Origin: Clostridiales bacterium
Lineage (GTDB): Bacteria > Bacillota > Clostridia > Christensenellales > Aristaeellaceae
NCBI GenBank assembly: GCA_017569285.1
Contig: CP069419.1
Coordinates: forward strand, 1,612,001-1,676,000
Direction: 5' to 3'
DNA length: 64,000 nt
Position numbers and translations under genes: made by a program. The notes beneath the pieces are model-generated. The model worked only from the letters and a program-made list of their open reading frames with translations. It did not search any database and was not told the DNA's origin. This document shows, piece after piece, positions 6,608-31,794 of the stretch (its first letter is position 1; each line of letters opens with the position of its first letter).

Positions 6608-9600
6608 TCACGCGTCGATGGTCGAGATGGTCAGGGTCGTCTCCTCCAGCACGTCCAGCAGCACCCGCACCGTATCCAGGCTGGTGAAGATCGTCGCGTT
6701 GTTCTCGGTCGCCGTCAGGCGGATCTGCAGTCCGTCATGCTCGGAGTCCGTCGCCCCGATCTCCCGGGTGTTGATGATGTAGGCCACATGTCCCTGCCGG
6801 ATGCTTTCCAGGATCTCATTGCTGCCTTCGCTGATCTTCTTCAGCATGTGCGTGCGGATGCCGTTCTCCTTCAGGAACTTCGCGGTGCCGGGCGTCGCCT
6901 CAATGTTGAAGCCCAGGTTGTAGAACCGGCGGATCAGCGGAAGCGCTTCCGCCTTGTCGCGGTCCGCGATGGTCGCCAGCACCGTGCCGTAGTTCTGCAG
7001 GCGGGTTCCGCCGGCCTGCAGCGCCTTGTAAAGTGCGCGGTTCAGCTTGTCATCGTAGCCGATCGCTTCGCCTGTGGATTTCATTTCCGGGCTCAGGTAG
7101 GCGTCCAGGCCCTTGATCTTGTTGAAGCTGAATACCGGCACCTTGACATAGTAGCGTTTCTTCTCTTCGGGATACAGGTCGAAGATGCCCTGTTCCTTCA
7201 GGCTCTTGCCGAGGATGACCTCCGTGGCGATATCCGCCAGGGAGTATCCGGTGGACTTGCTCAGGAAGGGCACGGTCCGGCTGGAGCGCGGATTCACCTC
7301 AATGATATACACGTCTTCCTTCTCATCCACGATGAACTGGATGTTGTACAGGCCGATGATGCCGATGCCCAGGCCCAGCTTCTTCGCGTACTGCAGGATG
7401 ATCCCCTTCACGCGGTTGCTGATGGAGAAGGCGGGATACACCGAGATGGAGTCGCCGGAGTGGATACCGGTCCGTTCCACCAGTTCCATGATGCCGGGCA
7501 CGAACACGTCGCGGCCGTCGCAGATCGCGTCCACTTCCACTTCCTTGCCGCGGATGTACTTGTCCACCAGCACCGGCTTGTCCGCGTCGATTTCCACCGC
7601 AGTCTTCAGGTAGTGGCGCAGCTGATCCTCGTTCGCGACGATCTGCATCGCGCGGCCGCCCAGCACGAAGCTCGGGCGTACCAGTACCGGGTAGCCGATC
7701 TCCGCCGCGGCCTGCACACCGTCCTCAATCCGGGTCACCGCCCGGCCCTTCGGCTGCGGGATGTTCAGGTCCAGCAGGATCTTTTCGAAGCTGTCGCGGT
7801 TCTCCGCCTTTTCGATGGCGGCGCAGTCCGTTCCGATGATTTTCACGCCGCGGTCCATCAGCGGCTGGGCCAGGTTGATGGCCGTCTGGCCGCCCAGGGA
7901 GGCAATCACGCCTTCCGGCTGCTCAAAGTCGATGATCGCCATCACGTCTTCGGGCGTCAGCGGCTCAAAGTACAGCTTGTCGGCCGTGGTGTAGTCGGTG
8001 GAAACCGTTTCCGGGTTGTTGTTGATGATGATCGCTTCGTATCCGGCGCGGCGGATGGTCTGTACCGCGTGCACCGTGGAGTAGTCGAATTCCACGCCCT
8101 GGCCGATACGGATCGGGCCGGCGCCCAGCACCACAATCTTCTTCTTGTCCGTCAGGATGGAATCGTTTTTGTTGGTGTAGCTGGAGTAGAGGTAAGCGAT
8201 GTACTTGCCGGTATGCAGGGTATCCACCATGCGGAACACCGGCACGATTCCGTTCTGCTTCCGCAGCGCGTAGATATCGGTCTCCTTCATGTTCCAGAAG
8301 CCTGCGATGGCCTTGTCGCCGAAGCCCATTTCCTTGGCCTGCCGCAGCACCGCCGTATCTCCCGGCGCCGCCGCCAGGACCTTCTCCATCTCCGTGATCT
8401 TTTTCAGGCTTTCCAGGAACAGCCCGGTGATCATGGTCTTTTCGTGGACGGTCTCAATCGGCTCGCCGCGGCGCAGCAGCTCCGTCACCGCAAACAGGGT
8501 ATCCGCGCGGAATTCGGACACATAGTCCAGCAGCTCTTCGCGGCTCATTCCGTCGAATTTCGCCATGTGCAGGTGGCATACGCCCGTCTCCAGGCTGCGT
8601 ACGCTCTTGAGCATGCACTCTTCGAGGTTGCTGCCGATGCCCATCACTTCGCCGGTCGCCTTCATCTGGGTGCCCAGCATGTTGCTGGCGTCAGTAAACT
8701 TGTCGAAGGGGAACCGCGGGAACTTCGCCACAATGTAGTCGAGGCTCGGCTCCATGGCCGCGTTGCCGCCGGCCACCGGAATCTCCTCCAGCGCCATGCC
8801 CAGGGCAATCTTCGCAGTCACCCGGGCAATCGGGTATCCGCTGGCCTTGCTCGCCAGGGCGGAAGACCGGCTCACCCGCGGGTTGACCTCAATCAGGAAG
8901 TATTCGCTGCTTTCGGGGTTCAGGGCAAACTGCACATTGCAGCCGCCTTCGATCTTCAGTTCCCGGATGATGCGGATCGCGCTGTCGTTCAGCATCTTCA
9001 GGTCGTGGTCGTTCAGGCTCAGGATCGGCGCCACCACCACGCTGTCGCCGGTGTGCACACCTACGGGGTCCACGTTCTCCATGCCGCAGATGGTGATCGC
9101 CTTGTCATTGCTGTCCCGCATGACTTCGAACTCGATCTCCTTGTATCCGCGCACGCTCTTTTCAATCAGCACCTGGTGCACCGGGCTCAGCCGGAAGGCA
9201 TTCGTGCCGATCTCGATCAGTTCTTCCTCATTGTAGGCGAAGCCGCCGCCGGTACCGCCCAGGGTGAACGCGGGCCGCAGCACCACCGGATAGCCGATGT
9301 CCAACGCCGCCTTCTTCGCCTCTTCCAGGCTGTAGGTAATCTCGCTTGGGATCACCGGCTCACCGATGCTCTGGCACATTTCCTTGAACAGCTCGCGGTC
9401 CTCCGCCCGCTCGATGCTCCGGCTGGAGGTGCCCAGCAGCTCCGTGCCGCACTCCTTCAGCACACCCTTGCGTTCCAGCTGCATGGCCAGGTTCAGGCCC
9501 GTCTGTCCGCCGATGCCGGGCACGATGGCGTCCGGCCGCTCATAGCGCAGGATCTTGGCGATGTATTCCAGGGTCAGCGGCTCCATGTACACCTTGTCCG

Positions 9601-23786: not shown

Positions 23787-23832
23787 AGAAAAAAAGAGGC
23801 CTTCAGGCAAGGAATTTCCTTGCTTCGGCCTC
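23787..23832 (-). terminator. Terminator of the HD/SLOG/TIR operon
   Basis: On the minus strand, GAGGCC pairs with GGCCTC and an inner GCAAGGAA pairs with TTCCTTGC; seven or more T residues follow. It insulates the operon from the rRNA promoter downstream. Confidence 0.92.
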
Positions 23833-23951: not shown

Positions 23952-26492
23952 TCAGTCCGGCGCAGTATACTTCCGGGCTTTCTTTACCAGCGTATCCAGA
24001 TCCGGTGTCAGCAGCCCCACATCTGCTTTCCCGTCCGGGTGCAGGACAACCGCTTCCGTAACCTCCTGATTAAATCCAACAGTAAAACCATATGTCCTGC
24101 GAGCGGATTCCGGAACCGGAATTTTCATAATCACCGCTAGGTTTTCCATGCTGATTACCGTTGCCTGCTGTTCCAGGCCGGAAAGCGTGATAAGATGCTT
24201 CCCATCTTCGGAAAACTGCAGCAGCTGGCACATCGCCCCGGTATCCAGCGTCCCCATACATTCCCCGGTCTTCAGGTCATACAGCGACAGGTTCTCCACA
24301 TATGTACCCAGTACAAGCACATCCCCGTATATGGCGGCACACAGCCGATCATAATTGGTTCCCGGAATCGTCATTACCGGTTCAGGACCTTCCTTTGCGC
24401 GGAAGATATCCACATCCTGCCCCCGGATCAGCGCCTGCCATTCCCCGTCCGGGGAAATATAGATGAAGTTACCCATAATGCCGCGGGTCGGATAAATAAG
24501 GTACTCCTCATCATTGAAGAAATACACCAGTCCCGGTTCCTCCCGCTCAACTGTAACCATATGGCCGTTCTCATCAAAGTATCCGAAACTGCTCCAGTTC
24601 CAATTGCCCATCAGCGGATAATATAAGGTTGTTGAATAAATATCGTCCGGATTATAGCTTTCACGTTGTTCTACGACCACATGCGGCAGTGCGTTTTCAT
24701 CATCCGATGGGACCAGATTGATCTGGCATCCGCCGGAACGCAGGGGCATTACCAAACGGCCTGCTGCCATGTCAAACCCATAGGATTCCCGCGATTCCCC
24801 GGAATCATAGAGTATGGTTTTGCTGCTGATCGTGTAAATCTGCACCTGCCCGTGGGAGGCAATCAGAGTATCATTGTCCGCAAATGCCAGGCCGTAAATC
24901 GTATTTGAATTGTTAAATCCATCTTTCCACACCACTTCTCCGGTAGTCGTATCATACACGGTAAAACCACTGGTTCCATGACCCGATGCCAGCAGCTTCC
25001 CATCCGGGGAAAGAACACCGCCGTATTCACTCCGCAGGGCCTCCTCCGCAGTATCCCACCTGAGATAGACGTACGCGTCTTCTCCCGTATAGCGGAAATA
25101 AGGTCCTTCGTCCGTTACGTCCAGGAAAATATTGAAGAGGCTTCCTTCAGCCGTCCGGAGGATGGTTCCGTTTTCCAGGTCCACCATCCAGATCTTTTCC
25201 CCATTCGTCCATGCGCCGCGCCGGCCGGCCCGATGGATCACCACTTCATCGAATGTACCGCCCGACAGAATGATCCCTTCCAATATTTTCAGCTCTTTGC
25301 TGAACGGATCAAACAGCCCGACCGCTTTATCTTCTGTCCGTATTACCGGAATCCGGTTGTTCACCGTGAGTTTTCCGGCAGAAATCACCCAGCCCTCGGG
25401 GATTGCTTCCCTGACCAGCTCTGTTCCGTCTTCGCTGTTATAAAGGATGATTTCCGTATCTCCTTCAACACCCTGGCAGATATACCGGCAGTCCGGGGAA
25501 AACGCGGATGCCCAGTACCGGCCAAAGTTTCGGATGGAATATAGTTTCTCTCCGGTCACGGTATTGTAAACCGGCAGGCTGCTATCCGCCTGGTGGAATG
25601 TTACCAACATTCCGTCATTACTTATGGAAGCGCTTCCATGAACAACCCCGTTGTCCTTCAGGGTGCCCAGCTGCATACCTGCATCCGGATAAATTGCTGC
25701 CTCGATTGCCGCCGCAATGGATGTATCATACCGGGTATCAAAAATCCGGCTCCCGTCATAGGCCTGCAGCGCATAGGTAAGGCCTCCCATCAGGTCACCG
25801 CCCCTGGTTGCCTGAACCGACTTCTCAATCAGCAGCTCCGTGGCGTTGCGGGCTGTCGCGTTGCGCTCCTCGGTCAGCAGCCGATTCTGGTACAAGGCAT
25901 AGATGGCAAAGCCGAGCACCACCGCCAGGACGCATGAAACCAGGGCCAGGCCCCGCCGAAGTGCCTGTTCCTTCTCCCTCTTTTTCAGGTCGTTAAAGTT
26001 CAGGTTCAGCATGCGGGCGATAATCCGCAGCTTTTCCGTCTTCAGCTGTTTTTTCAGGTTCCCGCGTACATCCGCCGCCAGCGGCTCCACTTCTTTGGTC
26101 TCTTCTTCCGCATCCTCATGTGTGATCTGCGGTGGATAGCTATCCTTCGGTTCCCCGGAAATCAGTACCGGGATAATATGGTCCTTCCGGCCCAGGCTGA
26201 TGAAATAGTCAATCTCCCGCAGGCACCAGGTGGAACCCGGCAGGTCCGGAGAGCAGATCACGATCAGCCATTCGCTTTCCTGCAGTGCTTTTTCAATGCT
26301 GGCTCCCAGGTCATCCGCCAGCGGAAGCTCGTCCTGGTCCCGGAAGCAGCGGTTCAGTTTCTTTACGCCGGTCTTTTTGCGGATATCCCCCGGGATCCGG
26401 TAGGTTTCCAGCGCCCGCTGGACAGCCTTTGCCGCTTCAATGTCCGCCGGCAGATGGCGGTAACTGATGAATGCGCTGTAGGTGTAAGCCAT
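23952..26492 (-). CDS. TIR domain protein with a transmembrane helix and a beta-propeller
   Basis: An 846-residue protein. Residues 1-115 form a TIR domain: box 1 is AFISYRH (7-13), followed by RDQDELPLADDLG (51-63), WLIVICSP (75-82) and STWCLREIDYF (87-97), in which Glu93 sits where NAD-cleaving TIR domains have their catalytic Glu. A basic/charged linker leads to one transmembrane helix (about 180-201) and then some 600 residues of WD40/quinoprotein-like repeats with recurring DG(K)-type turns and hydrophobic strands. Topology predicts a cytoplasmic TIR and an outer sensor-like propeller. It is the last gene of a three-gene operon, 21 bases after the SLOG-like gene, with a GGAGGAG site. A defence or stress-effector role is inferred; no activity is proven. 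Confidence 0.85.
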   Translation of the reverse strand: MAYTYSAFISYRHLPADIEAAKAVQRALETYRIPGDIRKKTGVKKLNRCFRDQDELPLADDLGASIEKALQESEWLIVICSPDLPGSTWCLREIDYFISLGRKDHIIPVLISGEPKDSYPPQITHEDAEEETKEVEPLAADVRGNLKKQLKTEKLRIIARMLNLNFNDLKKREKEQALRRGLALVSCVLAVVLGFAIYALYQNRLLTEERNATARNATELLIEKSVQATRGGDLMGGLTYALQAYDGSRIFDTRYDTSIAAAIEAAIYPDAGMQLGTLKDNGVVHGSASISNDGMLVTFHQADSSLPVYNTVTGEKLYSIRNFGRYWASAFSPDCRYICQGVEGDTEIILYNSEDGTELVREAIPEGWVISAGKLTVNNRIPVIRTEDKAVGLFDPFSKELKILEGIILSGGTFDEVVIHRAGRRGAWTNGEKIWMVDLENGTILRTAEGSLFNIFLDVTDEGPYFRYTGEDAYVYLRWDTAEEALRSEYGGVLSPDGKLLASGHGTSGFTVYDTTTGEVVWKDGFNNSNTIYGLAFADNDTLIASHGQVQIYTISSKTILYDSGESRESYGFDMAAGRLVMPLRSGGCQINLVPSDDENALPHVVVEQRESYNPDDIYSTTLYYPLMGNWNWSSFGYFDENGHMVTVEREEPGLVYFFNDEEYLIYPTRGIMGNFIYISPDGEWQALIRGQDVDIFRAKEGPEPVMTIPGTNYDRLCAAIYGDVLVLGTYVENLSLYDLKTGECMGTLDTGAMCQLLQFSEDGKHLITLSGLEQQATVISMENLAVIMKIPVPESARRTYGFTVGFNQEVTEAVVLHPDGKADVGLLTPDLDTLVKKARKYTAPD

Positions 26493-26513
26493 GCTTCCAC
26501 TCCTCCCGTACCC

Positions 26514-28112
26514 TCAGATGTTCAGCTCCGGTGCGTTGTCCCGCTGGTAGGAACTCCAGTTGCCGTTCTCGGTCAGTTCCTCCCGTGCCAGCAGCTCCAT
26601 CAGTTCCTCCGTCTGGCCGAACTGCTCCATCTGGGCCCCCACCGTCCGGAAGAGCGCTTCCATCTTCCGGTGGTCCGCCTTTTTCCGCTCCAGGCTCATC
26701 TTGCCGTAATAGCTGGCCAGGAAAAGCGTCCCCAACGATACCGTGCCCAGCAGGATCTTGAAAACCATCCGCCAGGTTTCAATATTCCGCACCGGAAGGG
26801 GCGGGTGCGGGGTCAGCCCGCCGCACAGCAGCTCAAACAGGATCCCGCCGAAGTACAACACCACCGCGCAGATTCCGGCCAGGTGCAGCAGCCGGTCATT
26901 CCGCATGCTCTTCCCTTCCGTCCGCTGTCCGGCTTTCTCATGGTACATCCGCTGCTTTTCCACCCAGCAGTCCCGGATGTCCCGGATCTGTTCCGGCGCC
27001 TTCCCGGCATTCAGCGCGCACATGGCGCACAGAATCCACGGGGTTTCCTGCTGCTCGGTCCAGGTCATGATCCGCTGCGTCTCGGTCCGGCTTCCCGCGT
27101 ACCGCAGGAAAAGCTGCACCCGGAGCGCCTCTGCCAGCATCCGGTACTCAATATACCTCCGGTGCTGGTCCGACCGTTTGGCCCGGTTCAGGGTCACCAT
27201 CGCGGCCAGCAGGGCGATTCCGCAGAGAAGGATCATCCAGGTCAGGTTTGCTTCATCATATAAGAGAAACGTCAGCGCGACCGCGGTGCCCAGCACCGCC
27301 AGGATTCCCATTGTCCGCCGGTATCTCCGGGCAAACAGCAGGCTCAGGCTGTCCGCCGCCTGCATTACCGCTTCCTGCTTTTTCATCACCGGATCCGCGC
27401 TTTCCGTTTCCGGCAGCAGGCTTTCCCCGCCTTCCGGCGCCGTTTCCGCCAGCCGGTTGAACTCCTCGGTTCGCTTCAGGATTTCTTCCAGTTCTTTCCA
27501 GCCGCCCAGCACATTCACGGTTCCGGTGTCCGGATCCGCGCTTCCTTCGCGGGGGGTCAGCACATGGATCACCGCCAGGTTCTCCGCCCTCCGGCACGCC
27601 ATTCCCCGCTGCGGCTTCCAGGCTCCCCGCAGCGCCGCATCCACCATGGCGGCCGTCCCGCAGTCCGACTGGTTTTCGGTTTTTCCGTCCCATAAAGCCA
27701 GCAGGATATGGCTGTGCTCCGTGATATAGAGCCCGGCCTGCCGGAACAGGGCATCCCGGTCCTTTTCTTCCGCTTCTCCTGCTTCCGCGGGTATGGTGAT
27801 GACCGACTGGGCCCGTTCCAGCTGCCAGCGCAGCCGGGCCAGTTCCTTCGGCTCAAAATCCTTTTCATATACCGCCTGTTCCATCGGGAGAACCGCCCGC
27901 AGCGAAACCCCTACCTCCTCCGCCGCTTCCGCGCAAAGCAGGTCCGCGCCCTGGGCCAGGGAGCACAGCATCACCATCGGCGTATGCGGGCAGCGGGTTC
28001 GGAGCTTGGTCAGCTCCCGCTTCACCGCATCCCGCAGCGCAAGGGTATCCCGCATCCGTGGATTCAGGTGCCCGGTGATTCCGATTGTCAGCGGTATCTT
28101 CTTTTCGTTCAT
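26514..28112 (-). CDS. SLOG-like Rossmann domain fused to four transmembrane helices
   Basis: The N-terminal 200 residues begin with LTIGITGH and continue with a LCSLAQGADLLCAEAA motif, a pattern of the SLOG/DprA-LOG superfamily of nucleotide-binding Rossmann folds. Two hydrophobic helices (about 267-312), a basic cytoplasmic segment and two more helices (about 404-425 and 447-470) follow, resembling the SLATT-type membrane effectors that accompany SLOG sensors in conflict systems. The ATG at 28112 has GGGAG upstream and fits the domain start; a GTG at 28154 overlapping the previous stop codon by four bases is the alternative. A nucleotide-gated membrane effector is inferred. Confidence 0.75.
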   Translation of the reverse strand: MNEKKIPLTIGITGHLNPRMRDTLALRDAVKRELTKLRTRCPHTPMVMLCSLAQGADLLCAEAAEEVGVSLRAVLPMEQAVYEKDFEPKELARLRWQLERAQSVITIPAEAGEAEEKDRDALFRQAGLYITEHSHILLALWDGKTENQSDCGTAAMVDAALRGAWKPQRGMACRRAENLAVIHVLTPREGSADPDTGTVNVLGGWKELEEILKRTEEFNRLAETAPEGGESLLPETESADPVMKKQEAVMQAADSLSLLFARRYRRTMGILAVLGTAVALTFLLYDEANLTWMILLCGIALLAAMVTLNRAKRSDQHRRYIEYRMLAEALRVQLFLRYAGSRTETQRIMTWTEQQETPWILCAMCALNAGKAPEQIRDIRDCWVEKQRMYHEKAGQRTEGKSMRNDRLLHLAGICAVVLYFGGILFELLCGGLTPHPPLPVRNIETWRMVFKILLGTVSLGTLFLASYYGKMSLERKKADHRKMEALFRTVGAQMEQFGQTEELMELLAREELTENGNWSSYQRDNAPELNI

Positions 28113-28150
28113 ATGCTCCCGTCCCATCTCTCCGGCGTTGCGGCGTTCTG

Positions 28151-30187
28151 TCACTTCAGTCGGTAAATGCGGACTCCGTCATATTTTTTCAGCAGCCGCA
28201 GCAGGCTGTTGAAAGGCAGGGAATCCTTCCCCTGCACCTCCGGCGGCAGGGTGGAATAATGCTTCAGGATTTTCTCGTCACTGCTTCCCGCCGGCAGGGT
28301 ATTCCAGTGCATGCGCAGCTGCTCCCGCAGGTCGGCTTTTACGCTGTCATCCGCGCCGGGAATCAGCGTTTCATATCGGTCCCCGGCGCTCCAGCCCATC
28401 ATCTCATGGTCCCGCACCCAGCGCAGGTGCTCCAGCGGCGCGATGGCTTCGGCCATCTCCGGGGTAAACCGGCCCAGCATCTCATAGTCCACCGGCTGGT
28501 CCGTATAGAAGCAGCCGATTGCGTTCAGGTGCCGGTCAAAAGCCCGGACCTGGTTGATATTGCTGATTTTGTATTCCAGTGAAAGGCTGTTGAAATCCTT
28601 CTCCATCTTTTCCGGGGAAACGCTGCTGGTCCGGCCGCTGTACAGGTAGCGGCTGTGCAGCGCCACCGCGAAATTATAAATATGAAGGAAATTGCTCGTG
28701 GAAAGATAGGTATGCTTTTCCCGGTAATCCGCCCTGCGCGTCATGCAGGAAACCGTCAGCGGGCATTTCTCCAGGTCCACAATCTGCCGGATATCCCGGG
28801 TAAAGCGCTGTCCCTTCTCCGCCATGTCACTGTAAGCCTTCAGCCGCGGCATGGTTTTGGGGTTTCCGTCTTCCTTTTCCCACGTATCGTACAGCTTTTC
28901 ATATGCCCGGATCTTGTCCTGCTCTGCTTGGTCATAATAATACTTTGCGCGGATTTTCTGACCGGCGAAGGAGAAATCCACAGCCATCGGATGCAGCTCA
29001 TCCCGGGAATTCCGCCCGTATGCCGTCCGGTCCCAGCACTGCAGCTCATCGCAGAGCATCAGCAGCCAGGCCAGCGGATGCAGCTCCGCCTTCAGCGGCG
29101 CCTTCAGGTCGTCGGTTTTGTAGCCGACGATTGCGAACTTGAACAGGCTGTTGTGCAGCATGATGGCCGACAGCGCGTCAATATGGTACTTTTCGATTTT
29201 TTCCGCCTTCAGGATCCTGGCGAGCTCCTGGAACAGCCGCCCGGCGCTGAAGAACGCATGGTCCATATAGTAGTTGTTTTCCTCCGGACTTCCTGCCTTA
29301 CTGCGGATTCTCCGGTCCATCTCCGCTTCCGTAAATCCATAGGCGGCTCCCAGCTTTTCGGTGATCACGGCCGCCAGCAGCTCCGTCACATCCCCGAAGG
29401 CACGGTTGTGATACAGCGTTTTCAGCTTTTCCCGTTCCGCATCCTCAATCCGGATCAGCGGATAAACATTCCGGTAGGCGATATATACGCTCTCCGGCCC
29501 GCGCTTTTTCCGGTCCACCTCGAAGTAGGCCAGGATTTGTTCAAAGGGAATCTCGAACGGATATCCGACGTCATGGAACAGTGCCGTCAGTCCCCAGTAT
29601 TCCAGGAATGCACAGGCGCTCGCGTGTCCCCGGCCTTCGTCCGCAAATCCGTAGTACCGGCTGAACACCTGCCGAAACCATGCGTTCGTCTCATAGATCG
29701 CCAGCCCCAGTGCAAAAACATACACCGAGTGGGAGTAATGGTCCCGGTGGCTCATCAGCAGGGAGGATGCGTTGGATTCAAACTCGGAAAGCAGCTCCAC
29801 CATGGACTGGCTCTTTCCACCCTCCCCGATGAACATCTCGATGAACGCGTAATACACCGTATAGGCGTCCTCCGCCACGCCGGAGTCAATGAACTTCGCC
29901 ATTTCATTTTTCAGGCACAGCCGGTCCAGGTCCATCTGCATGTTGTACGGGATCTGCCCGGGCCGCAGGCTTCTTCCGGAATACTTCCGTTCTGTCCGCT
30001 CCGTTTTTTCCTTTTCCGTGTCATGGCGGAGCCCGGTGCAGCGCCTGTCCAGGAAGCGCAGCACGGCGCTCTTCAGGTCCATGCCCCGCGCTTCCCCGTC
30101 AAAAGACGCCGGAAGGAACGGCCCCAGGTCCTCCCCGAAGCGTTTCCGGTTCTGTCTGCGCATTTTTTCAATTGCCGTATAACTCAT
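28151..30187 (-). CDS. HD-domain protein with a C-terminal RyR domain
   Basis: A 678-residue soluble protein and the first gene of the three-gene operon. An HD-phosphohydrolase-like region has clustered His at 147, 150 and 153 followed by LFHDVGYPFE with His205-Asp206. The second half ends with EHLRWVRDHEMMGW (586-599), matching the RyR (ryanodine-receptor repeat) pattern of a His/Trp pair and a GW; prokaryotic RyR domains are predicted ligand-binding modules. The ATG is preceded by GGGAGGG. HD domains of this kind hydrolyse or sometimes sense nucleotides. Whether this one makes, removes or senses the signal read by its neighbours is unknown. Confidence 0.78.
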   Translation of the reverse strand: MSYTAIEKMRRQNRKRFGEDLGPFLPASFDGEARGMDLKSAVLRFLDRRCTGLRHDTEKEKTERTERKYSGRSLRPGQIPYNMQMDLDRLCLKNEMAKFIDSGVAEDAYTVYYAFIEMFIGEGGKSQSMVELLSEFESNASSLLMSHRDHYSHSVYVFALGLAIYETNAWFRQVFSRYYGFADEGRGHASACAFLEYWGLTALFHDVGYPFEIPFEQILAYFEVDRKKRGPESVYIAYRNVYPLIRIEDAEREKLKTLYHNRAFGDVTELLAAVITEKLGAAYGFTEAEMDRRIRSKAGSPEENNYYMDHAFFSAGRLFQELARILKAEKIEKYHIDALSAIMLHNSLFKFAIVGYKTDDLKAPLKAELHPLAWLLMLCDELQCWDRTAYGRNSRDELHPMAVDFSFAGQKIRAKYYYDQAEQDKIRAYEKLYDTWEKEDGNPKTMPRLKAYSDMAEKGQRFTRDIRQIVDLEKCPLTVSCMTRRADYREKHTYLSTSNFLHIYNFAVALHSRYLYSGRTSSVSPEKMEKDFNSLSLEYKISNINQVRAFDRHLNAIGCFYTDQPVDYEMLGRFTPEMAEAIAPLEHLRWVRDHEMMGWSAGDRYETLIPGADDSVKADLREQLRMHWNTLPAGSSDEKILKHYSTLPPEVQGKDSLPFNSLLRLLKKYDGVRIYRLK

Positions 30188-30247: not shown

Positions 30248-30277
30248 ATTATATCATACTGTTTGAATGCTTGTCAT
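30248..30277 (-). promoter_or_regulatory. Promoter of the HD/SLOG/TIR operon
   Basis: Minus-strand ATGACA (30272-30277), 18 bases, and a perfect TATAAT (30248-30253), about 60 bp upstream of the first ATG. No other strong promoter is seen inside the operon. Confidence 0.75.
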
Positions 30278-30369: not shown

Positions 30370-31794
30370 CTGCAGAAGAATGATATCTTCCCCATGCGGG
30401 CGGAAAACCTGGGTGCGGATATGGAAGGCGTATGCCGCCATGAAGGCATGACGGTCTTTGTTCCCGGCCTGCTGCCGGGTGAAGAAACGGATGTGCGCAT
30501 CGTCAAGGTGGAAAAGCGCTATGCCTTCGGGCGGATGGAGCGCCTGCCGGCCGTTCCCTCACCAGACCGGAAGGATCCGGACTGTCCCGCGTTCCCCCGC
30601 TGCGGTGGCTGCTCCTGCCGCCACATGCGCTATGAAGCCACCCTTACAGCCAAGCAGCGCCAAGTCGAAGACTGCTTCCGCCGGATCGGCGGCATGGAGG
30701 TGGAAGTCCTTCCGCCGCTGGGAATGGAGAATCCCCGCGCCTACCGGAACAAGACCGCGCTGCCGCTGGGCGGAACCGCCGCGGCTCCGGTGCTCGGCTT
30801 CTATGCACCCCGGAGCCATTCGGTCATCCCAATCGAAAACTGCCCGAATGCCATGGCGCCCTCGGATGAAATCGCCGCCCGCTTTCGGTCCTGGATGAAA
30901 CGTTTTTCCATCGCCCCCTATGATGAGACCACCCACCGCGGGCTGGTCCGCCACCTGATGGTCCGCGTCAGCCGCGCCGGGGAATGTATGGTCACCGTCG
31001 TCATCAACGGACCGTCCCTGCCGCACGAGCAGGAGCTGGCCGAAGCCCTGAAGCCGCTGGGCGTCGTCAGCCTGTTTGCAAATATCAACACCGCCCGGAA
31101 CAACGTCATCCTGTCCGACCGTTTCCAGATTATATATGGAAGCGAAACACTTTCCGATACCCTCTGCGGGCTGGAATTCCGGCTTTCCCCGGGCGCCTTC
31201 TTCCAGGTCAACCCGTCCCAGACGGAAAAGCTGTATGAAACCGCCCTGCGCTTCGCCAGCCTGACCCCGGAGGATACGCTGTGCGATGTCTACTGCGGCG
31301 CCGGAACTATCACCCTGATGATGGCCCCGTACTGCCGCTCTGCCGTCGGAATTGAAGTCGTCCCGGCTGCGGTGGAGAACGCCCGGGAGAACGCAAAGCG
31401 GAACGGAATCCCGAACGCCGAATTCCACGCCGGCAAGGCGGAGGAGCTGCTGCCCCGCATGGTCCGGGACGGCCTCCGCTGCAATGTGATCGTTGTGGAT
31501 CCGCCGCGGAAGGGGCTGGAACCGGAAGTCATCCGGGCAATTGCCGAAGCCGGTCCTGACCGGGTCGTCTATGTCTCCTGCAATGTCGCGACCCAGGCGC
31601 GGGATGCCGCGTTCTTCCGGGAAGCCGGATATAACGTGCAGAAGGTCCAGCCGGTCGATATGTTCTGCTGGACCTCCGGAATCGAGTCCGTCGCATTGTT
31701 CTCCCGGGATGAAAAAAAACACTGCCGGCTGGCAGGGAAGGACAGGCTGTATGAAGATAATCGACCATGTGGAAAAGCAGGACCAGACGATTGA
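30370..31794 (+). CDS. rlmD: 23S rRNA (uracil-C5)-methyltransferase, RlmD/RumA family
   Basis: A SAM-dependent methyltransferase that puts a methyl group on a 23S rRNA uracil. An N-terminal TRAM domain is followed by the iron-sulfur motif C-x5-C-x2-C (CPAFPRCGGC), the SAM domain with DVYCGAGTITL, the DPPRKG motif, and the catalytic Cys in YVSCNVATQARD. No ATG sits at the expected N-terminus: the family start corresponds to QKND, just after a CTG at 30370 preceded by AAGGCGGG. A TTG at 30340 has almost no leader after the predicted transcription start. An internal ATG at 30394 would cut the TRAM domain slightly. RlmCD specificity is equally possible. Confidence 0.88.
   Translation: MQKNDIFPMRAENLGADMEGVCRHEGMTVFVPGLLPGEETDVRIVKVEKRYAFGRMERLPAVPSPDRKDPDCPAFPRCGGCSCRHMRYEATLTAKQRQVEDCFRRIGGMEVEVLPPLGMENPRAYRNKTALPLGGTAAAPVLGFYAPRSHSVIPIENCPNAMAPSDEIAARFRSWMKRFSIAPYDETTHRGLVRHLMVRVSRAGECMVTVVINGPSLPHEQELAEALKPLGVVSLFANINTARNNVILSDRFQIIYGSETLSDTLCGLEFRLSPGAFFQVNPSQTEKLYETALRFASLTPEDTLCDVYCGAGTITLMMAPYCRSAVGIEVVPAAVENARENAKRNGIPNAEFHAGKAEELLPRMVRDGLRCNVIVVDPPRKGLEPEVIRAIAEAGPDRVVYVSCNVATQARDAAFFREAGYNVQKVQPVDMFCWTSGIESVALFSRDEKKHCRLAGKDRLYEDNRPCGKAGPDD

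Follow-up and report, generated by a model that had tools for sequence, protein, structure and literature searches.

Three neighbouring genes in a 64,000-nucleotide stretch of the Clostridiales bacterium contig CP069419.1 (positions 1,612,001 to 1,676,000; hereafter the window) encode an HD phosphohydrolase fused to a ryanodine receptor-type repeat (HD-RyR), a SLOG-SLATT membrane protein, and a protein made up of a TIR domain, a membrane helix and a beta-propeller, and from their sequences they look like one signalling module. We propose, with a probability that we put at roughly one half, that this is a nucleotide-signalling module driven by TIR, with SLOG-SLATT and HD-RyR as its two receptors. 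In this model the membrane-anchored TIR protein, cued via its propeller, would turn NAD+ into a signal of the ADP-ribose (ADPR) type, such as the cyclic forms 2'cADPR or 3'cADPR or a relative; SLOG-SLATT would bind this signal and open a membrane pore, and HD-RyR would bind it in the RyR pocket and so control, or deliver the signal to, its metal-dependent HD hydrolase. The most likely purpose would be an inducible growth-arrest or immune response.

The HD, RyR, SLOG, SLATT and TIR domains are all placed by profile and fold searches; a previous sequence-only reading of the window had named HD, RyR, a SLOG-like domain, a 2TM-type membrane effector and TIR. The HD phosphohydrolase motif (H...HD...H...H...D) is present in HD-RyR in an alignment of 71 sequences thinned at 88% identity, and the residues that we take, from this motif, to be its metal ligands are H153, found in 70/71 sequences, and H205, D206, H310, H345 and D380, found in 71/71; the same presumed ligands are conserved in each of the distant HD-RyR proteins aligned (loci L119, L143, L144 and L153). 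By fold, with VIA-align and separate domains, the HD part looks most like cyclic-nucleotide phosphodiesterases, whose class I catalytic fold it may have; Foldseek with the whole protein gave nothing informative, the separate domains appearing only with VIA-align.

The RyR repeat (PF02026 family) is placed by sequence as well as by fold. Four of its residues, H587 (69/71), W590 (71/71), H627 (70/71) and D655 (71/71), kept together in 69/71 sequences, fall at H75, W78, H100 and D117 of RyDEP, a phage RyR protein described in a 2026 preprint that binds and cleaves 2'cADPR and 3'cADPR, themselves products of TIR enzymes (PMC13232231). The HxxW spacing is alike in the two proteins. Counted on the sequence, the positions 22 and 39 residues past the Trp in 6uhi, an RyR chain, also agree with RyDEP; an insertion between W590 and D655 in HD-RyR makes H627 the least certain of the equivalents. 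Six of eight RyDEP homologs bind 2'/3'cADPR and the other phage homologs assayed showed no cleavage, and the role of RyR domains in bacteria is not addressed in the part of the preprint drawn on here (PMC13232231). The suggestion that HD-RyR makes the signal found no support in our analysis; what is reported for a phage RyR protein is binding or cleavage of signals of this kind (PMC13232231).

The SLOG domain of the second protein is N-terminal and of the YspA/YpsA type, and is followed by membrane helices at residues 281-299, 304-322, 422-440 and 463-481. The protein matches DUF4231 at 26.5 bits (cut-off 24.7) and so has the paired membrane helices of the SLATT/DUF4231 group; the SLATT_1 and SLATT_4 profiles match at E 1e-4, below their cut-offs. 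SLATT has been predicted to form a pore that responds to nucleotides (PMC7159879, PMC9503650). The start codon of this gene is probably an ATG near 28112, about 14 codons downstream of the one listed. TIR_2 matches the third protein at E 1e-10 with its catalytic Glu present, and TIR enzymes produce 3'cADPR, His-ADPR and N7-cADPR for Thoeris effectors (PMC12847820). Among 89 TIR domains linked to HD-RyR the catalytic position reads E in 39 in one alignment, where shifted neighbours hide it, and the column is gappy in the other. For none of the three proteins did the PADLOC and NCBIfam models give a match that passes a curated cut-off or has an E value lower than 8e-6, and the PADLOC ThsA model meets SLOG-SLATT at E 0.02 only, over the membrane stretch at residues 271-336.

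Linkage of HD-RyR with TIR and SLOG-SLATT

HD-RyR relatives in GTDB species genomes (the best 80 of 112 stretches), together with one viral-contig locus, gave 81 loci. The 80 genome loci are mostly metagenome-assembled genomes (MAGs), many from ruminant guts going by their titles, and the 80 tree rows besides the window come from Bacillota (72), Chloroflexota (6) and Actinomycetota (1), with no phylum told for one. Locus L017 is in the tree without having entered the alignment, and L071, with a split frame, is counted among the 81 loci and left out of both. Four partner types, TIR, SLOG-SLATT, kinase and leucine-rich repeat (LRR), were labelled with profiles built for this analysis. The SLOG-SLATT label accepts either half of the protein: in at least L039, L052, L053 and L066 it denotes the membrane half alone (310-326 aa), and in L040 and L043 a fragment at the stretch edge.

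A TIR gene lies within 9 kb of HD-RyR in 53 of the 81 loci, SLOG-SLATT or a half of it in 19, and both in 14; thus 39 loci have TIR near HD-RyR without SLOG-SLATT. A protein kinase is near in 15. Among direct neighbours that share the strand of HD-RyR and lie no more than 150 nt away, we count TIR 31 times and SLOG-SLATT 12 times. This linkage is far above background. In 40 genomes with HD-RyR, chosen from the 80 genome loci mostly for longer contigs, TIR_2 is present in 39 with 127 matches, of which 36 fall in 31 of the 40 loci (0.96 expected), an approximately 38-fold enrichment given that the loci make up 0.7 of 92.3 Mb; the 36 are what is left of 39 after three coordinate coincidences on other contigs were removed by hand.

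Co-occurrence points the same way. HD-RyR is found in 11 of 150 genomes of the window's family (G124 being a weak match unseen by our profile and G107 a distant one) and in two of seven of its genus, the window included, and is therefore a patchy and not a core locus. TIR_2 is present in 47 of the 150, comprising 11/11 genomes with HD-RyR vs 36/139 others, and SLOG-SLATT or a half (E 5e-30 or better) in eight, comprising 7/11 vs 1/139, with shared ancestry uncorrected in both comparisons. The latter count includes matches to the membrane half alone in G018 and G083 and to the SLOG half alone in G107, and excludes G033, G080 and G103, which lie near E 1e-3. Because HD-RyR and SLOG-SLATT are on separate contigs in G018 and G083 and about 37 kb apart in G091, the co-occurrence does not reflect close linkage alone. 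In relatives the genes are linked or co-occur at rates far above background.

On a quick tree that leaves 22 of its 78 inner branches open, we count 16 changes of state for TIR and 12 for SLOG-SLATT, so that the partners of HD-RyR come and go. Among ten partners sampled with Pfam are proteins of the TIR-LRR, TIR-TPR, TIR-propeller, kinase-LRR and kinase types. Ten loci (L022, L025, L028, L030, L032, L045, L060, L063, L076 and L080) carry in tandem a TIR protein with a transmembrane segment (TIR-TM, about 275-300 aa) that seems to lack the catalytic Glu and a TIR-TM-LRR protein (about 385-415 aa) that has it, often with large TM-LRR proteins alongside; this looks like a pseudo-enzyme/enzyme receptor pair. 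A clade of eleven loci (L047, L055, L068, L069, L074, L079, L087, L091, L092, L095 and L096) has HD-RyR without the sought partners nearby in 10 of 11. L084 (Chloroflexota) hardly differs from L093 (Bacillota), which points to recent transfer or misbinning.

Further out, a profile built from close as well as distant rows has matches in 27 of 291 class genomes, almost all of them across the RyR part. Of 28 loci fetched (L162-L189, three of them under 5 kb), TIR is in the stretch at eight (L162, L164, L166, L168, L170, L171, L172 and L189; on the opposite strand in L168, where the match is weak, and in L172) and is not found in the other 20. Short RyR-only open reading frames (ORFs; 93-105 aa) have TIR in the stretch at L158, L164, L166, L168, L170, L171 and L172, and none at L169, L174 and L177; those near TIR or TIR-LRR (93-103 aa) are about the size of solved putative bacterial RyR chains (100-103 aa). 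Among eight distant HD-RyR loci, TIR adjoins in L119, which holds TIR, HD-RyR and SLOG alone, L143, L144, L161 and L162, and is lacking in L153, L163 (at a contig end) and L165. L145 (5840-7633) and L146 (9330-11129) encode a RyR-TrkA_N protein with a hydrophobic N-terminal stretch and without HD, situated before a SLOG-SLATT gene whose SLOG label comes from our own profile, Pfam giving a weak DUF4231 match only; L145 additionally has TIR-NACHT-TPR, with the gene order of the window. The RyR domain in these two may control an ion channel. Pfam RyR is above its cut-off in six of 299 phylum genomes, the window's own not being included, with TIR in the stretch at G286, G435, G482 and G313 and not at G400 or G331. 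Plasmid records gave no HD-RyR match at E 1e-3, and phage records one: L161 (MT836912.1, 2081-6509), a fecal scaffold labelled 'Bacteriophage sp.' and unverified, in which a 774-aa HD-RyR (35% identical) overlaps a TIR gene (703 aa).

Gene layout and the nearest relative

On re-examination of the window, the coordinates and strand of all three genes, their promoter and their terminator hold up as previously placed (Table 1). The terminator directly precedes an rRNA promoter (23764-23736) whose operon lies downstream on the same strand, and upstream, on the opposite strand, are frames that by inspection we name RNA-methyltransferase-like and HAD-like.

Table 1. Features of the three-gene unit, in window coordinates
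Feature	Coordinates	Strand	Description
HD-RyR protein	28151..30187	-	678 aa; HD phosphohydrolase part ~49-483, C-terminal RyR repeat ~492-678
RyR domain of HD-RyR	28154..28714	-	H587, W590, H627, D655 match RyDEP ligand/catalytic residues
SLOG-SLATT protein	26514..28154	-	546 aa as listed; N-terminal SLOG, then four membrane helices
TIR-membrane helix-beta-propeller protein	23952..26492	-	846 aa; TIR ~8-117, helix 182-200, Glu93 kept
Sigma-70-type promoter of the unit	30248..30277	-	11/12 consensus bases, 18-nt spacer, TG before -10
Rho-independent terminator of the unit	23787..23832	-	fold -23 kcal/mol, z -2.4

The nearest relative, L018, has an HD-RyR 95% identical to that of the window and the same flanks, and aligns with the window in synteny over about 12.5 kb, covering the flanks, HD-RyR and SLOG-SLATT, with 92-94% identity; the promoter boxes of the window recur in L018 and L019. 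L018 keeps the terminator, there behind SLOG-SLATT, and there is one TIR_2 match elsewhere in its genome, so TIR need not be encoded in cis. After the SLOG-SLATT stop the window and L018 have TACGGGAGG in common, which would fit loss of the TIR gene in L018; the GC content at third codon positions of the propeller part, 59% vs 75-79% in the other genes measured, would fit its gain in the window.

There are three side observations. L018 has about 536 bases (6896-7431) without counterpart at window 31759-31760, near the end of the methyltransferase-like frame. A second TIR protein (genome G000:C1:1033342-1033998, in a 1080-aa frame; L001, L160) shares 47% identity with residues 4-217 of the window TIR. 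The HD-RyR of L071 (9001-10999; same genome as L008, L014 and L118) breaks into two frames around residues 61-77.

Weighing the readings

Several findings weigh against parts of the sequence-only reading. L018 has 45 bases where the window holds the TIR gene; with synteny otherwise kept, this rules out the exact trio as a fixed operon. The architecture of the TIR partner varies (TIR-LRR, TIR-TPR, TIR-NACHT-TPR, TIR-propeller), and 22 of the 81 loci have none of the four partner types; many loci end at contig ends, and among the 52 with at least 3 kb on each side of HD-RyR 12 lack them. Nor does genomic context favour an immune purpose: PADLOC families are no more frequent among neighbours (nine families and nine member-matches in 125 ORFs) than among controls (nine and 11 in 113), so that a defence island finds no support in these samples. 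They were taken from 492 neighbour ORFs at 52 loci and 275 control ORFs in 20 hand-chosen, not random, stretches, and were picked by length, with some antisense frames in both sets. The sampled neighbours outside the module are ordinary, metabolic genes. The earlier model thus survives in outline, its RyR-TIR link strengthened and its exact trio and defence association weakened.

As to the role of HD-RyR, we lean slightly towards a receptor-effector over an off-switch, because 39 of 81 loci pair it with TIR without SLOG-SLATT nearby. An effector role would account for the many loci in which TIR and HD-RyR stand with no other effector, an off-switch for the match to RyDEP. In the latter model, which we think somewhat unlikely, RyR would capture the TIR-made signal and HD or RyR would hydrolyse it, setting a threshold or ending the response, with SLOG-SLATT and the TIR protein as the effectors and HD-RyR as the cell-encoded counterpart of the phage protein. 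The correspondence of the four RyR residues with RyDEP catalytic and ligand residues (PMC13232231), the resemblance in fold of the HD part to cyclic-nucleotide phosphodiesterases, and the presence of HD-RyR in seven of the eight family genomes with strong SLOG-SLATT matches all speak for it; however, 39 of the 53 TIR loci have no obvious separate effector, which an off-switch alone leaves unexplained, and the other phage homologs did not cleave (PMC13232231).

The same chemistry might instead serve another end. An immune role is plausible but unproven, being favoured by patchiness, spread and domain content. A doubtful alternative is an envelope or surface sensor, in which propeller and LRR parts behind membrane helices would detect the surface and the module would tune physiology within gut communities; TIR-TM-LRR and kinase-TM-LRR proteins are among the partners, and the loci sit amid metabolic genes without PADLOC enrichment, that of the window adjoining an rRNA operon. 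Against this, the locus is patchy, its records come from Bacillota, Chloroflexota and Actinomycetota (MAGs, some possibly misbinned), and conflict systems are the typical setting of SLATT, SLOG and TIR (PMC7159879, PMC9503650). That the TIR gene is merely a chance neighbour of an HD-RyR/SLOG-SLATT pair, as its absence from L018 and the deviant propeller composition might suggest, is most improbable in view of the enrichment and co-occurrence of TIR with HD-RyR and of the repeated adjacency in distant lineages.

More broadly, and tentatively, RyR domains may be bacterial receptors for TIR-made cyclic ADP-ribose, and HD-RyR may be the hub of a TIR signalling system, widespread and unnamed, in gut Clostridia; its receptors (TIR-TM-LRR and TIR-TM-propeller) would be Toll-like in plan. 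Linkage and co-occurrence connect RyR proteins of bacteria with TIR genes, which bears on the old question of cADPR and the ryanodine receptor; were RyR a cADPR receptor, the disputed link with the animal receptors would have a bacterial ancestor. The various RyR forms (HD-RyR, RyR-TrkA_N and short RyR-only ORFs) suggest several readouts.

Comparison with known systems

The module resembles Thoeris (ThsB TIR with a ThsA of SIR2-SLOG or TM-macro type) in encoding a TIR enzyme, with its catalytic Glu, beside a putative nucleotide-binding receptor-effector fusion, in having a SLOG-type receptor and, as in type II, a membrane effector. It differs in that its SLOG is YspA/YpsA-like and fused to SLATT, no ThsA effector of SIR2-SLOG, TM-macro or caspase-like type being found in it, in the additional HD-RyR enzyme, and in a TIR protein that is membrane-bound with a propeller. 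SLOG/SLATT nucleotide-centred conflict systems were reportedly predicted by the Aravind group in a 2015 paper. The systems predicted by that group likewise bring together SLATT as a pore effector, SLOG, TIR and enzymes that process nucleotides, and TIR-SLATT neighbourhoods occur in firmicute phages, but no HD-RyR hub is described in the parts drawn on here (PMC7159879, PMC9503650); the words 'RyR' and 'ryanodine' are absent from both papers. RyDEP and HD-RyR have in common an RyR domain whose four ligand/catalytic positions agree, but RyDEP proteins are phage-encoded defence-evasion proteins that antagonise Thoeris whereas HD-RyR is cell-encoded, HD-fused and linked to TIR genes. The TRPM2 channel, which is gated by ADP-ribose and whose MHR part has a SLOG fold, is an analogy of plan only, with no homology of the membrane part claimed. 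In the literature searched we found no name for this trio or its recurrent arrangement, in agreement with the sequence-only reading, and our best reading of the sequences is that the module would be a further variant of TIR/SLOG (Thoeris-like) signalling.
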